NCBI GenBank assembly: GCA_012517285.1
Contig: JAAYVG010000047.1
Coordinates: forward strand, 1 to 35,603
Reading direction: 5' to 3'
DNA: 35,603 nucleotides
From: Elusimicrobiota bacterium
GTDB lineage: Bacteria; Elusimicrobiota; Elusimicrobia; Elusimicrobiales; UBA9959
Shown here: positions 13,007-28,096 of the stretch, one piece after another
Position numbering within the stretch: position 1 is the stretch's first letter
Layout: each line of letters starts with the position of its first letter
Notes under the pieces: generated by a model
Told to the model about the DNA's origin: nothing
The model's input: the letters and a program-made list of their open reading frames with translations, nothing else
Databases searched by the model: none
Made by a program: the position numbers and the translations under genes

Positions 13007-13067
13007 TGGTTAATAGTATAATTATTTTATATTTTATCCATCTTATTATCAAATTTACTGTTATATT

Positions 13068-13112
13068 ATTCATTTGGAAAATTATCTTTCGTTAGAGTTT
13101 TTCAGTAACCCC
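13068..13112 (-). repeat. Solitary end of the MITE family
   Basis: Read on the minus strand, this 45-bp segment (GGGGTTACTGAAAAACTCTA...) is 41/45 identical to 27948-27992 and matches the left terminus of the 16042-16416 element over its first 22 bases. No opposing end is found within several hundred bases, so it appears to be a relic or an independently mobile end. It lies in the divergent gap between glmM and the DUF4139 gene. Confidence 0.75.
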
Positions 13113-14581: not shown

Positions 14582-16018
14582 TTAGTATCCCTCAGAGGAT
14601 GGGATGCTTGCTGCTATATCATCAGCCACAGGTTCTGGTGAAAACATTTTTTTGCGTTTAATAAATACCTTTTTCCAGTGTCCAGATTGAAACGCAATTA
14701 TCATTGCTATGCCCTGAAATATATCAGAGGCATTGATACCAAGCCATATTCCATTATGACCCATCTTTAAACCAAGAGCACAGATGTATGCAAATGGTAT
14801 TCTAAAACCGAGCTGGCCTATTGCATTTAAAACAGTTGGTGTCTTTGTATCACCAGCACCATTCATAGCCTCAGAAAGCACAAGTGAAAAAGCGATAAAA
14901 GGAAATGTCACTGCAACATATCTTATAAATGAACTACCTATAGATATAACCTCAGGATTGGAATTAAATATTCTTACTATATCAGGAGCAAATATAAGGA
15001 ACAAAACTGCAAGAGGTATGGAAATATATTCATAGTATAAAACAGCCTGCCAAGTGGCTTTTTGTGCTCTATCAGGTTTCCCAGCTCCAAGATTTTGACC
15101 AGTTAATACAGCAGCAGCACTTGCAAAGCCAAACCCCGGAACCATAATAAATGATCTTATTCTTGAACCAATTCCATATGCTGCAAGCGTAACAGCTCCA
15201 AAAGATGCCACAAGACGCATAAGAAAAAGAAATGATATCTCACGAATGAATATCTGAAGCGATGCAAAAAAACCTATGCTCATAATCTGCTTCATAAGTG
15301 AGGGAAGAGGCTTGAGATTTTTTAATTCCAAATGAATTGTTGAATGACCAAATATTAAATGGTAAAAAAGAAATAAAACACCTATTCCTCTTGTTATAAC
15401 TGTTGCCATAGCTGAACCAGATACCCCCATTTTAGGAAATGGTCCATAGCCCATAATAAGAAATGGATTGAGTATAATATTTAATATATTTGCTGTTATC
15501 AAGGCATACAAAGGTGTTTTTGCATCGCCAGAGCCCCTCAGTGCATTGTTTATTCCAACAAATAAAAATATGATAATTGAATACGTAAAGGTTATTTTTA
15601 AATAGCTGACAGCATAGTATACAACATCTCCAGTTGCACCAAAGAGCCTTAACAATGGCTCTAAAAGAAAAAAAGCAACTGGCAGCATAATAACTGCTCC
15701 TATAATACTTAAAATAAATGTCTGACCAAGAATTTTATCAGCCATCTCATAGTTTTTTTCACCGGTAAAGCGAGATACGAATGACAGTGTTCCAACAGCT
15801 ATTCCCTGAATAAGCATCATAAGTATTGCAACGATTGTGCCTGAAATGGCGATCGCAGCAACTTGAATATGACCCAATCTTCCAACAAAGAATAGGTCCA
15901 CCATAGAAAATAGATCTTCAAGCGCACCGCCTATCAGCATCGGTGTTGCTAACTTCCATATTGATGATGAAAGTTTTCCTTCTACAAGACCTGTTTCAAT
16001 CTTTCTCTTTCTTGCCAT
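14582..16018 (-). CDS. MATE family multidrug/cation exporter
   Basis: 478 aa with twelve predicted membrane segments in two homologous halves, the MATE (NorM/DinF) arrangement. Diagnostic stretches are the first helix (WKLATPMLIGGALEDLFSMVDLFFVGRLG), NALRGSGDAKTPLY in the first half and EAMNGAGDTKTPTVLN in the equivalent place of the second half. It would export organic cations or drugs by Na+ or H+ antiport. No Shine-Dalgarno is visible before the ATG. TATAAT at 16028-16033 (minus) would place the transcript start only about 3 nt upstream. The MITE at 16042 begins just behind that -10. Substrate unknown. Confidence 0.93.
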   Translation of the reverse strand: MARKRKIETGLVEGKLSSSIWKLATPMLIGGALEDLFSMVDLFFVGRLGHIQVAAIAISGTIVAILMMLIQGIAVGTLSFVSRFTGEKNYEMADKILGQTFILSIIGAVIMLPVAFFLLEPLLRLFGATGDVVYYAVSYLKITFTYSIIIFLFVGINNALRGSGDAKTPLYALITANILNIILNPFLIMGYGPFPKMGVSGSAMATVITRGIGVLFLFYHLIFGHSTIHLELKNLKPLPSLMKQIMSIGFFASLQIFIREISFLFLMRLVASFGAVTLAAYGIGSRIRSFIMVPGFGFASAAAVLTGQNLGAGKPDRAQKATWQAVLYYEYISIPLAVLFLIFAPDIVRIFNSNPEVISIGSSFIRYVAVTFPFIAFSLVLSEAMNGAGDTKTPTVLNAIGQLGFRIPFAYICALGLKMGHNGIWLGINASDIFQGIAMIIAFQSGHWKKVFIKRKKMFSPEPVADDIAASIPSSEGY

Positions 16019-16027
16019 ATAATATTT

Positions 16028-16033
16028 ATTATA
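16028..16033 (-). promoter_or_regulatory. Candidate -10 of the MATE gene
   Basis: TATAAT on the minus strand, ten bases before the MATE start codon. The position expected for a -35 (about 16051-16056) now falls inside the MITE-like element, so the original upstream promoter half would have been displaced by the insertion. Confidence 0.35.
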
Positions 16034-16041
16034 TAACTTAA
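16033..16041 (+). repeat. Target-site duplication, left copy
   Basis: ATAACTTAA lies directly before the GGGG terminus of the MITE-like element and is repeated exactly at 16417-16425, directly after its other end. Nine-base duplications are typical of several DDE-transposase families. Confidence 0.85.
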
Positions 16042-16170
16042 GGGGTACTGAAAAACTCTAACGGTGGAGTTTTTGTAAATGAAAAACTATATAAAAAAGT
16101 TTAAAATTTTATATCAAAACTGCAAGGTTTTTTTTAAGTATTGTTGGCAAATTCCATTAAGTTTTTTTCC

Positions 16171-16214
16171 AAAATTGACAAAAAAAAGACGATCGTCTTT
16201 TTTTTGTCAATTTT
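16171..16214. repeat. 44-bp perfect palindrome inside the MITE
   Basis: AAAATTGAC, eight A, then the self-complementary core GACGATCGTC (16188-16197), eight T and GTCAATTTT. Every base pairs around the centre between 16192 and 16193. In RNA it gives a 22-bp stem with no loop, so a cruciform or a protein site is equally plausible. Confidence 0.95.
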
Positions 16215-16286
16215 TTTACACACACATTCCCATAGGAGAAAAGTTAGTTTTAATATTAATTTTAAACTAAAAATTTACATTTTTGG

Positions 16287-16315
16287 GACGATCGTCTTTT
16301 TTTTGTCAATTTTTT
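16287..16315. repeat. Half-copy of the palindrome
   Basis: The core GACGATCGTC and the right arm (T8, GTCAA and a T run) repeat 16188-16216 exactly at a distance of 99 bp, but the left arm is missing. This suggests partial duplication within the element. Confidence 0.95.
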
Positions 16316-16416
16316 AGATTAGATAAAAAATAATAAAAATTGCTTTCCTAAATAACCAAATAACAGATAACTAAATAACAATAAACTGTAGCTCAAATAG
16401 ACTTTTTCAGTGACCC

Positions 16417-16425
16417 ATAACTTAA
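16417..16425 (+). repeat. Target-site duplication, right copy
   Basis: ATAACTTAA, identical to 16033-16041, immediately after the right terminus of the element. Confidence 0.85.
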
Positions 16426-16556
16426 AAGTTTTATGATAAATAAAAGATAGCAAAAAATCACCTTACAACAGCCTTATTGACAAAGTATTTTTTTAGATTT
16501 AGACTATAATTATATAGCATTGTTAAGATTCAATGATACATTTCTATGGAGGAGAG

Positions 16557-17198
16557 ATGATAACAATAAACATATCAAGGCAGTTTGGAAGCGGTGGCTC
16601 ATATATAGGTAAAAAAATAGCAAACCATCTTGGATTTAAATATCTTGACAGTGAAATATTAAATCTTGCTTCAAAAAAACTTGGGATACCTGAAAAAGAA
16701 GTGGCTATAAAGGATGAAAGGGTTAAAGGGTTTTGGGAAAATTTTTTTACAACATTCTCATTTGCTGCACCAAGCGATTCCACCTATGTCCCCCCTCCTG
16801 TTGAGATGATAAGTGATAGTGAATTTTTTGAAACGGAGTCAGAGATAATACGTAATCTTGCAAACAGATATAATGCAGTAATTATAGGAAGGGGAGCATC
16901 ACATATACTTGCTGACAAACCTGGATGCATAAATGTATTTATATATGCGTCAATAGAGTTTAGGGTAAAACGTGTGATGAAAATATATAAAATAGATAAT
17001 GAAAAAAAAGCTTTTGATATGATTGAAAAGAAGGATGATGGCAGAAAAAAATTTATATACAATATATCTAAAAAGAATTGGAACGATGCTTTAAACTATC
17101 ACCTCTCGATAGATAGCGAAGCAAGCGGATTCAAGCTGGCAGGGAATATGATAATCAATCTGGTAAACAAAATCTCGGAAAAAAAAGAAAAGCAATAA
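16557..17198 (+). CDS. Cytidylate kinase-like family protein
   Basis: About 213 aa, P-loop kinase of the cytidylate-kinase-like group. The N-terminus ITINISRQFGSGGSYIGKKIA carries the nucleotide-binding loop (GSGGSxIGK in place of the usual GxxxxGK[ST]), followed by LGFKYLDSEIL. VIIGRGASHIL and the FIYASIEFRVKRVM segment with a lid Arg occur later. True Cmk proteins differ in their N-terminal motif, so I do not assign CMP as substrate. The start is the ATG at 16557, directly after GGAGGAGAG; an ATG eight codons earlier lacks a binding site. It stands alone on the plus strand, convergent with tRNA-Gln. Confidence 0.85.
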   Translation: MITINISRQFGSGGSYIGKKIANHLGFKYLDSEILNLASKKLGIPEKEVAIKDERVKGFWENFFTTFSFAAPSDSTYVPPPVEMISDSEFFETESEIIRNLANRYNAVIIGRGASHILADKPGCINVFIYASIEFRVKRVMKIYKIDNEKKAFDMIEKKDDGRKKFIYNISKKNWNDALNYHLSIDSEASGFKLAGNMIINLVNKISEKKEKQ

Positions 17199-17207
17199 CA
17201 TCCTTAA

Positions 17208-17278
17208 CTCCGGGACTAGGATTCGAACCTAGACTAAACGGTCCAGAGCCGCTTGTGCTACCGTTACACCATCCCGGA
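17208..17278 (-). tRNA. tRNA-Gln (anticodon CTG)
   Basis: 71 nt cloverleaf. The acceptor stem TCCGGGA pairs with TCCCGGA, discriminator G. The anticodon loop CTCTGGA gives CTG, and the T arm carries GGTTCGAATCC. CCA is not encoded. It is convergent with the kinase gene ending 9 bp away. Confidence 0.95.
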
Positions 17279-27111: not shown

Positions 27112-27978
27112 ATGGCACTTCATCCTATAACTTCTTTCTGTAACCAGAAATGTATATTCTGCTCTGCATATCAGAGGGATGATGATCTATTTGATATAAA
27201 AGATTTTACAAAAGAAATTTTAAGCGACAGAGATCCTCTCTTCGTTATATCAGGCGGTGAACCTCTATCAGTTGGGATAGATAATCTGATCTATATACTC
27301 AACATTCTTAACAAACAGTCGAAGACAACAGAGATACAAACAAATGCATTGCTAATTGAAAACATACCATACGAAAAGCTTCATCTCCTCATATCGCTTC
27401 TTAACAGGAATAAAGGTTATTTTAATATAAATTTATCCGCTCATAACAAAACAACAGATTATAAACTTACAGGGGTAAAAAATGGTTTTGAGAAAAGACT
27501 TTCAGCTATAAAAACGCTTTCAAAGAATGGAGCAACTATAAGATTAACATATGTAATAAACTCAATAAATTACAAGCATATATCTGATTTTTCAAAGCTT
27601 GTAGTAAATAAATTACCATTTATTAACTGGGTTCAGTTCAGTTTTGTAAAGGGCATTGGTAAGGCAAAGGATAATAGAAATGTTATCCCTAAATATACTG
27701 ATGTATCACCTTATCTTATAAAGGCAATCAGCATACTTGATAGACACCATATAAAATTTAATACAGATCACATCCCACTTTGTTTTCTCGGAAAATACTG
27801 GGAGAGCAATGTTGATGTAAACAAAATGAGAAACGGTATTAAGGGCGATTATCTCTTAGAAAAAGAAAAGATTAAGGACTGTGATGGATGCAAGTTTTAC
27901 AGCATATGCTCCGGTCCAAGAAAGGATTACATAAAGGTGTATAAGAAGGGGTCACTGAAAAAGTCTAACGAAAGATAA
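27112..27978 (+). CDS. Radical SAM protein with C-terminal Cys cluster
   Basis: 288 aa. The 4Fe-4S/SAM motif is at the very N-terminus (CNQKCIFC, the CxxxCxxC pattern), followed by SGGEPLS and an IQTNAL segment, typical of the radical SAM barrel. Near the C-terminus CDGCKFYSICSGPRKDYIKVY holds three more cysteines, as in SPASM-like auxiliary cluster sites, although shorter. No peptide substrate gene is visible nearby. The last ten codons and the stop are formed by a 45-bp MITE-end copy that starts at 27948, so the original C-terminus may have been a little different. Substrate unknown. Confidence 0.88.
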   Translation: MALHPITSFCNQKCIFCSAYQRDDDLFDIKDFTKEILSDRDPLFVISGGEPLSVGIDNLIYILNILNKQSKTTEIQTNALLIENIPYEKLHLLISLLNRNKGYFNINLSAHNKTTDYKLTGVKNGFEKRLSAIKTLSKNGATIRLTYVINSINYKHISDFSKLVVNKLPFINWVQFSFVKGIGKAKDNRNVIPKYTDVSPYLIKAISILDRHHIKFNTDHIPLCFLGKYWESNVDVNKMRNGIKGDYLLEKEKIKDCDGCKFYSICSGPRKDYIKVYKKGSLKKSNER

Positions 27979-27992
27979 TTTTTCTAATGAAT
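27948..27992 (+). repeat. Solitary MITE end overlapping the radical SAM stop codon
   Basis: GGGGTCACTGAAAAAGTCTA and 25 more bases match 13068-13112 (41/45 on the other strand) and the termini of the 16042-16416 element. It supplies the last codons and the TAA of the radical SAM gene. No opposite end is found before the next gene. Confidence 0.78.
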
Positions 27993-28024
27993 AATTGTCT
28001 TGATTATAGTAGATTGTTGTTTTG

Positions 28025-28072
28025 AAAGTGCACGATTTTTAGGGTGATGTTGCAAAAACCTTGCACTTTTTT
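28025..28072. terminator. Bidirectional terminator candidate between convergent genes
   Basis: AAAGTGCA (28025-28032) pairs with TGCACTTT (28062-28069), with an inner T5/A5 pairing, and is followed by a run of T on the plus strand and of T on the minus strand (from the A run upstream). It lies between the converging radical SAM and cysteine desulfurase genes. Confidence 0.5.
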
Positions 28073-28096
28073 ATCTTTCTTTTGGCAATAAAGCTG

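Follow-up and report, generated by a model that had tools for sequence, protein, structure and literature searches.

The IS5-related MITEs of Porphyromonas gingivalis, BrickBuilt and MITE464/PgRS, have ends reading GAGAC...TGCA and duplications of varying length (PMC4596501). The element described here resembles them in being non-autonomous and multi-copy and in having ends in common with IS5-family elements; its own ends are different, however, and the P. gingivalis MITEs have parents in the same genome, whereas none was found in the genome carrying our element. It can also be compared with the transpos_IS5_1 (NF033578) group of IS5-family elements, such as ISMae6, with which it shares ends of the form GGG..CTGAAAAA and TA-bounded duplications of 6 to 7 bp; several members also carry a TGCA inverted repeat in the leader, of which it keeps one arm. 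Unlike these elements, it has no transposase gene. We consider it very probable that this element is a MITE derived from an IS5-family element of the transpos_IS5_1/ISMae6-like group and moved by a transposase supplied in trans.

The element lies within a window of 35,603 nucleotides, the whole stretch analyzed (contig JAAYVG010000047.1 of an Elusimicrobiota bacterium), between divergent genes at 14582-16018 (−) and 16533-17198 (+). Named from their translations rather than by a family search, these are a putative MATE-type exporter and a putative cytidylate-kinase-like protein, respectively. A preliminary description, made from the window alone, had drawn a 375-bp segment at 16042-16416, and its ends, coordinates, and flanking repeat proved exact when the sequence was read directly. 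The left terminal inverted repeat, GGGGTACTGAAAAACTCTA (16042-16060, +), was assigned by direct reading and matches to the end pattern; the right one, at 16398-16416, is GGGTCACTGAAAAAGTCTA on the minus strand (TAGACTTTTTCAGTGACCC in forward-strand letters). The two ends are identical at 16 of 19 positions, and a repeat finder joins each flank and end into a 27-nt inverted repeat that is 81% complementary. By the convention used for the family, the complete copy spans 16041-16417 (+; 377 bp) and belongs to subfamily A, with a palindromic core. The ORF list of the window contains no frame of at least 80 amino acids within the 375-bp segment, in agreement with its description as noncoding.

The same 9 bp, ATAACTTAA, flank the element on both sides (16033-16041 and 16417-16425) and had been taken as a perfect 9-bp target duplication. 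We surveyed duplications at 55 end pairs from the window genome and a Flavobacteriales genome (MAG S010_51), comparing the flanks outside a fixed 10-base end. An exact duplication of 6 to 7 bp was present in 33 of these pairs, against about 5 expected with randomly re-paired flanks; 29 were 6 bp long and 4 were 7 bp long, the window copy being counted among the latter. Typical targets are TAAATA, TATTTA, TACTTA, TAAGTA, TATAATA, and TAACCTA, and the duplications of these MITEs are therefore 6 to 7 bp with TA at both ends (TANNTA or TANNNTA). Because this length holds across copies, we read the window duplication as the 7-bp TAACTTA (16034-16040 and 16418-16424), contained within ATAACTTAA. The extra A on either side, which brings the repeat to 9 bp, looks like a coincidence: the flanking A's consist of the upstream neighbor base and the outermost base of the element, which is changed at both ends. 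The duplication is thus intact, as had been proposed, but the family-wide survey sets its length at 7 bp.

The end pattern recurs throughout the window genome, a draft of 1.96 Mb in 52 contigs that is 97% complete. Within the window there are 4 exact matches versus 0.09 expected, namely both ends of the element and lone ends at 13093-13111 (−) and 27949-27967 (+). Across the genome, the 19-bp end has 151 matches with up to 3 mismatches (75 forward, 76 reverse), whereas the reversed pattern used as a control has 4 (1 forward, 3 reverse). Together, these counts indicate that the end pattern is not due to chance. A BLAST search with the window element returned 62 matches in this genome, and several contigs break inside copies, as is expected of repeats. 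At C3:28332-28640, a subfamily A copy flanked by a TAAGTA duplication is nested in an older unit bounded by ends of the same type (C3:28007-28790). A genome-wide search for the ends had been suggested in the preliminary description, which held that a lack of other end-bounded copies would speak against its reading; dozens of related copies are present. The same description regarded the features of this single copy as strong evidence of transposition. Transposition is indeed supported, but the strongest evidence for it comes from the family rather than from one copy.

The two lone ends in the window belong to truncated left ends of subfamily B copies, related elements that lie outside the main finding, at 13065-13112 (−) and 27948-28093 (+). 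The second is fused to the 3′ end of a radical-SAM-like ORF (27112-27978): the subfamily B end (27949-27978) supplies the final codons and the stop of this frame, whose product has the C terminus KKGSLKKSNER.

No gene matching transpos_IS5_1 (NF033578) was found in the 52-contig draft, and none of the spaces between or beside the end copies inspected there held a transposase. The MITE family therefore looks orphaned in this genome, although it is possible that a collapsed autonomous copy is hidden in the draft. A MITE need not strictly share its genome with an autonomous partner. Matches to DDE_Tnp_1, ISL3, DDE_Tnp_1_6, and DUF772 in the same genome were considered as parents and set aside, since none carries these ends, as were IS1182-like elements in two other genomes (G006 and G022), which also lack them. 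The preliminary description had proposed looking for an insertion sequence with the same ends; the window genome yielded no transposase so bounded, but relatives elsewhere identify the parent group.

Within the phylum, the end is present with at most 1 mismatch in 7 of 341 genomes. At 2 mismatches, copies are numerous in three genomes from other genera of the same family: an uncultured Elusimicrobia bacterium (G010), Elusimicrobium sp. SulCav_AS07-7 (G013), and G025. These copies are homologous to those of the window genome and have the same layout; the left end of the window element is 79% identical to the G010 sequence (E = 2.5e-6), and leader alignments give z scores of 7.1 (window versus G010) and 11.3 (subfamily A versus G010). 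The sole other congener searched, G001, has no match to the end when 2 mismatches are allowed, and neither do viral contigs match it. Several searches bore on the insertion site itself. The MATE and kinase flanking genes had no match in the relatives searched; a protein search with the kinase in ten relatives was likewise empty and, having no positive control, shows little. A DNA search with the surroundings of the insertion in six relatives recovered only the outer genes, each on separate contigs, and a search for joined flanks (empty sites) among sampled loci matched only repeats. None of these searches showed an empty orthologous site, the further proof that the preliminary description had proposed. 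Literature searches found neither the end sequence nor anything relevant on MITEs in Elusimicrobiota.

The Flavobacteriales genome (MAG S010_51) links these ends to a transposase. Here, the end pattern matches 85 times with 2 mismatches allowed, versus 0 times for the control, and the genes around the copies look Bacteroidota-like. The copies form a MITE of about 222 bp with TANNTA duplications; it has one end identical to ours over 19 bp and the same targets and duplications but differs from the window element in length, core, and phylum. On contig C343 of this genome, an end that is near-identical to the window-family end and lies at a TATATA target is followed by a gene that matches both transpos_IS5_1 (E = 3e-74) and PF13586. 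In this degraded copy, the gene is read in three frames, its N-terminal part lying in other frames, and the contig stops before the right terminus. The presence of the same end and target in Flavobacteriales points to an IS lineage common to different phyla, reflecting either transfer or long persistence. The same genome also contains a 1.64-kb unit with these ends (C442:252-1894), which in place of a transposase carries an ORF similar to a portion of a tyrosine recombinase; a Pfam search with this ORF gave no match.

A tblastn search of plasmids recovered relatives annotated as IS5, including ISMae6, and the annotated or tblastn-found relatives end in GGGnnTGCTGAA. The terminal repeats are GGGTTTGCTGAATAA in ISMae6 (Microcystis), GGGCTTGCTGAAAAA in an Oscillatoria element, GGGTCTGCTGAAA in a Persicobacter element, GGGTCTGCTGAATGA in an Alicyclobacillus element, and GGGGTTGCTGAAAAA in a Nostoc element, all five having ends of the type GGG..CTGAA. 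Most relatives have duplications of the TAnn(n)TA type, among them TAGTTA, TAAGTA, TAACATA, and TACGTTA; one Persicobacter copy has no direct duplication. The end of a Tetragenococcus element, ATGCCTACTGA, differs, and a terminal-repeat search of an Acaryochloris element gave none. Identity of the end to well-annotated relatives is partial (GGGTTCACTGAAAAA versus GGGTTTGCTGAAAAA): the window-element ends read CACTG, whereas most annotated relatives of the NF033578 group read TGCTG.

Outside the ends, similarity between the IS and the MITE leaders is weak, with a z score of 3.4 at best. The C343 IS leader, subfamily A, and the G025 MITE all have TGCA inverted-repeat arms at offsets 76 and 112, each with a chance probability below 1% by shuffling; the Persicobacter and Nostoc elements have TGCA arms at other offsets. 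In the C343 and Persicobacter elements, the second arm stands directly 5′ of an ATG. The window copy retains only the first arm, AAAACTGCAAGG (16116-16127, +), the second being present in other subfamily A copies, and the exact 6-base arm pair is absent in 8 of the 13 elements tested, including the window copy. The simplest reading of these sequence comparisons is that the MITEs may keep the leader end of a transpos_IS5_1-type element.

The core of the window element contains a 44-bp perfect palindrome, AAAATTGACAAAAAAAAGACGATCGTCTTTTTTTTGTCAATTTT (16171-16214), typical of window-type copies, and a further 27-nt copy of one palindrome arm (16287-16313) that is 100% complementary to 16171-16197. 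This palindromic module is common to the window-type copies on C6, on C25, and on C50, which has two; a broken one lies on C22. The 44-bp palindrome is perfect or nearly so even in copies with differing bases (TTGAC...GTCAA versus TCGAC...GTCGA), both halves changing together between copies. It also occurs outside any MITE, at C50:1793-1838. On C22, an ISL3/IS256-like transposase gene (37038-37735), cut by the contig end, apparently interrupts a MITE copy within its palindrome. A terminator scan of the palindrome found none by its rule, and an Rfam search gave only a nearby tRNA gene (17208-17278, −), where a 76-bp stretch is identical in G013.

The strong self-complementarity of the core (fold z = −5.3), together with the palindrome standing alone on C50, could suggest a dispersed structural repeat of the hairpin or terminator type that is not transposable and whose ends are inverted by chance. 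Site-specific target duplications, sharp boundaries, and nesting argue against this, as does the occurrence of ends and targets of this type in IS relatives, and we regard it as extremely unlikely. If the element is instead mobile, it might have been moved by a transposase of the IS4/IS10/IS50 or IS903 type that generates 9-bp duplications. The flanking repeat of the window copy is exactly 9 bp, but no other complete copy has this length, the exact duplications being of 6 bp (29 pairs) or 7 bp (4 pairs), and the genome's sole DDE_Tnp_1 match, at C6:62075, is not surrounded by such ends; an origin of this kind is very unlikely.

Equally slight is the probability that the MITE was moved by ISL3/IS256-like elements; contigs C22 and C47 each end in a fragment of such an element. 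Multi-copy elements are often found at contig ends, and the C22 fragment adjoins half of a MITE. This fragment, however, begins with its own GGGATAAAGACAG inside the MITE palindrome and therefore appears to have inserted into a MITE and not to be the parent, while the C47 fragment is not bounded by any end of the MITE type.

The derivation from a transpos_IS5_1-type element accords with the classification in the preliminary description of a MITE with terminal inverted repeats, mobilized by a transposase that the element does not encode; the genome-wide copies, the target duplications, the nested insertion, and the IS relatives support both points. The element combines terminal repeats (16/19), a duplication, short length without a transposase gene, and many dispersed copies. 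In the mechanism we propose, a parent IS5-family element would have lost its transposase gene while its terminal repeats and the end bearing the leader were retained. Acting in trans, a transposase would recognize ends with the consensus GGG[T/G][T/C]CACTGAAAAAGTCTA and make cuts staggered by 6 to 7 bp in an AT-rich target bounded by TA (TANNTA or TANNNTA). Insertion between the divergent MATE exporter and cytidylate-kinase-like genes would then have produced the TAACTTA duplication. The transposase may since have been lost from the window genome or may never have been encoded there, and the copy is probably now immobile.

These results define a MITE family in Elusimicrobiota whose copies occur in four or more genera of a single family and are missing from the congener searched. 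The ends and target duplication, and more tentatively the leader, tie this MITE family to one particular subgroup of IS5. The MITE family itself is new; the class of mobile DNA to which it belongs is known, and the general understanding of MITEs is unchanged by it. The family supplies boundaries for annotating many intergenic regions, as well as insertion markers for strain comparison.

Of 30 genomes from the same bacterial family, nearly all encode, beside thymidine kinase, a single protein of 165 to 195 amino acids. This protein matches only positions 8-134 of transpos_IS5_1, the N-terminal third, corresponding to DUF772 with no DDE domain, and is likely an exapted transposase domain; it is absent from the window's genus. 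That it serves as an exapted DNA-binding domain that recognizes IS and MITE ends and restrains or uses the group seems improbable. If it did, the lack of the protein in the window's genus could have permitted a burst of copies; this reading is weak because G010, G013, and G025 keep the protein yet carry MITEs.
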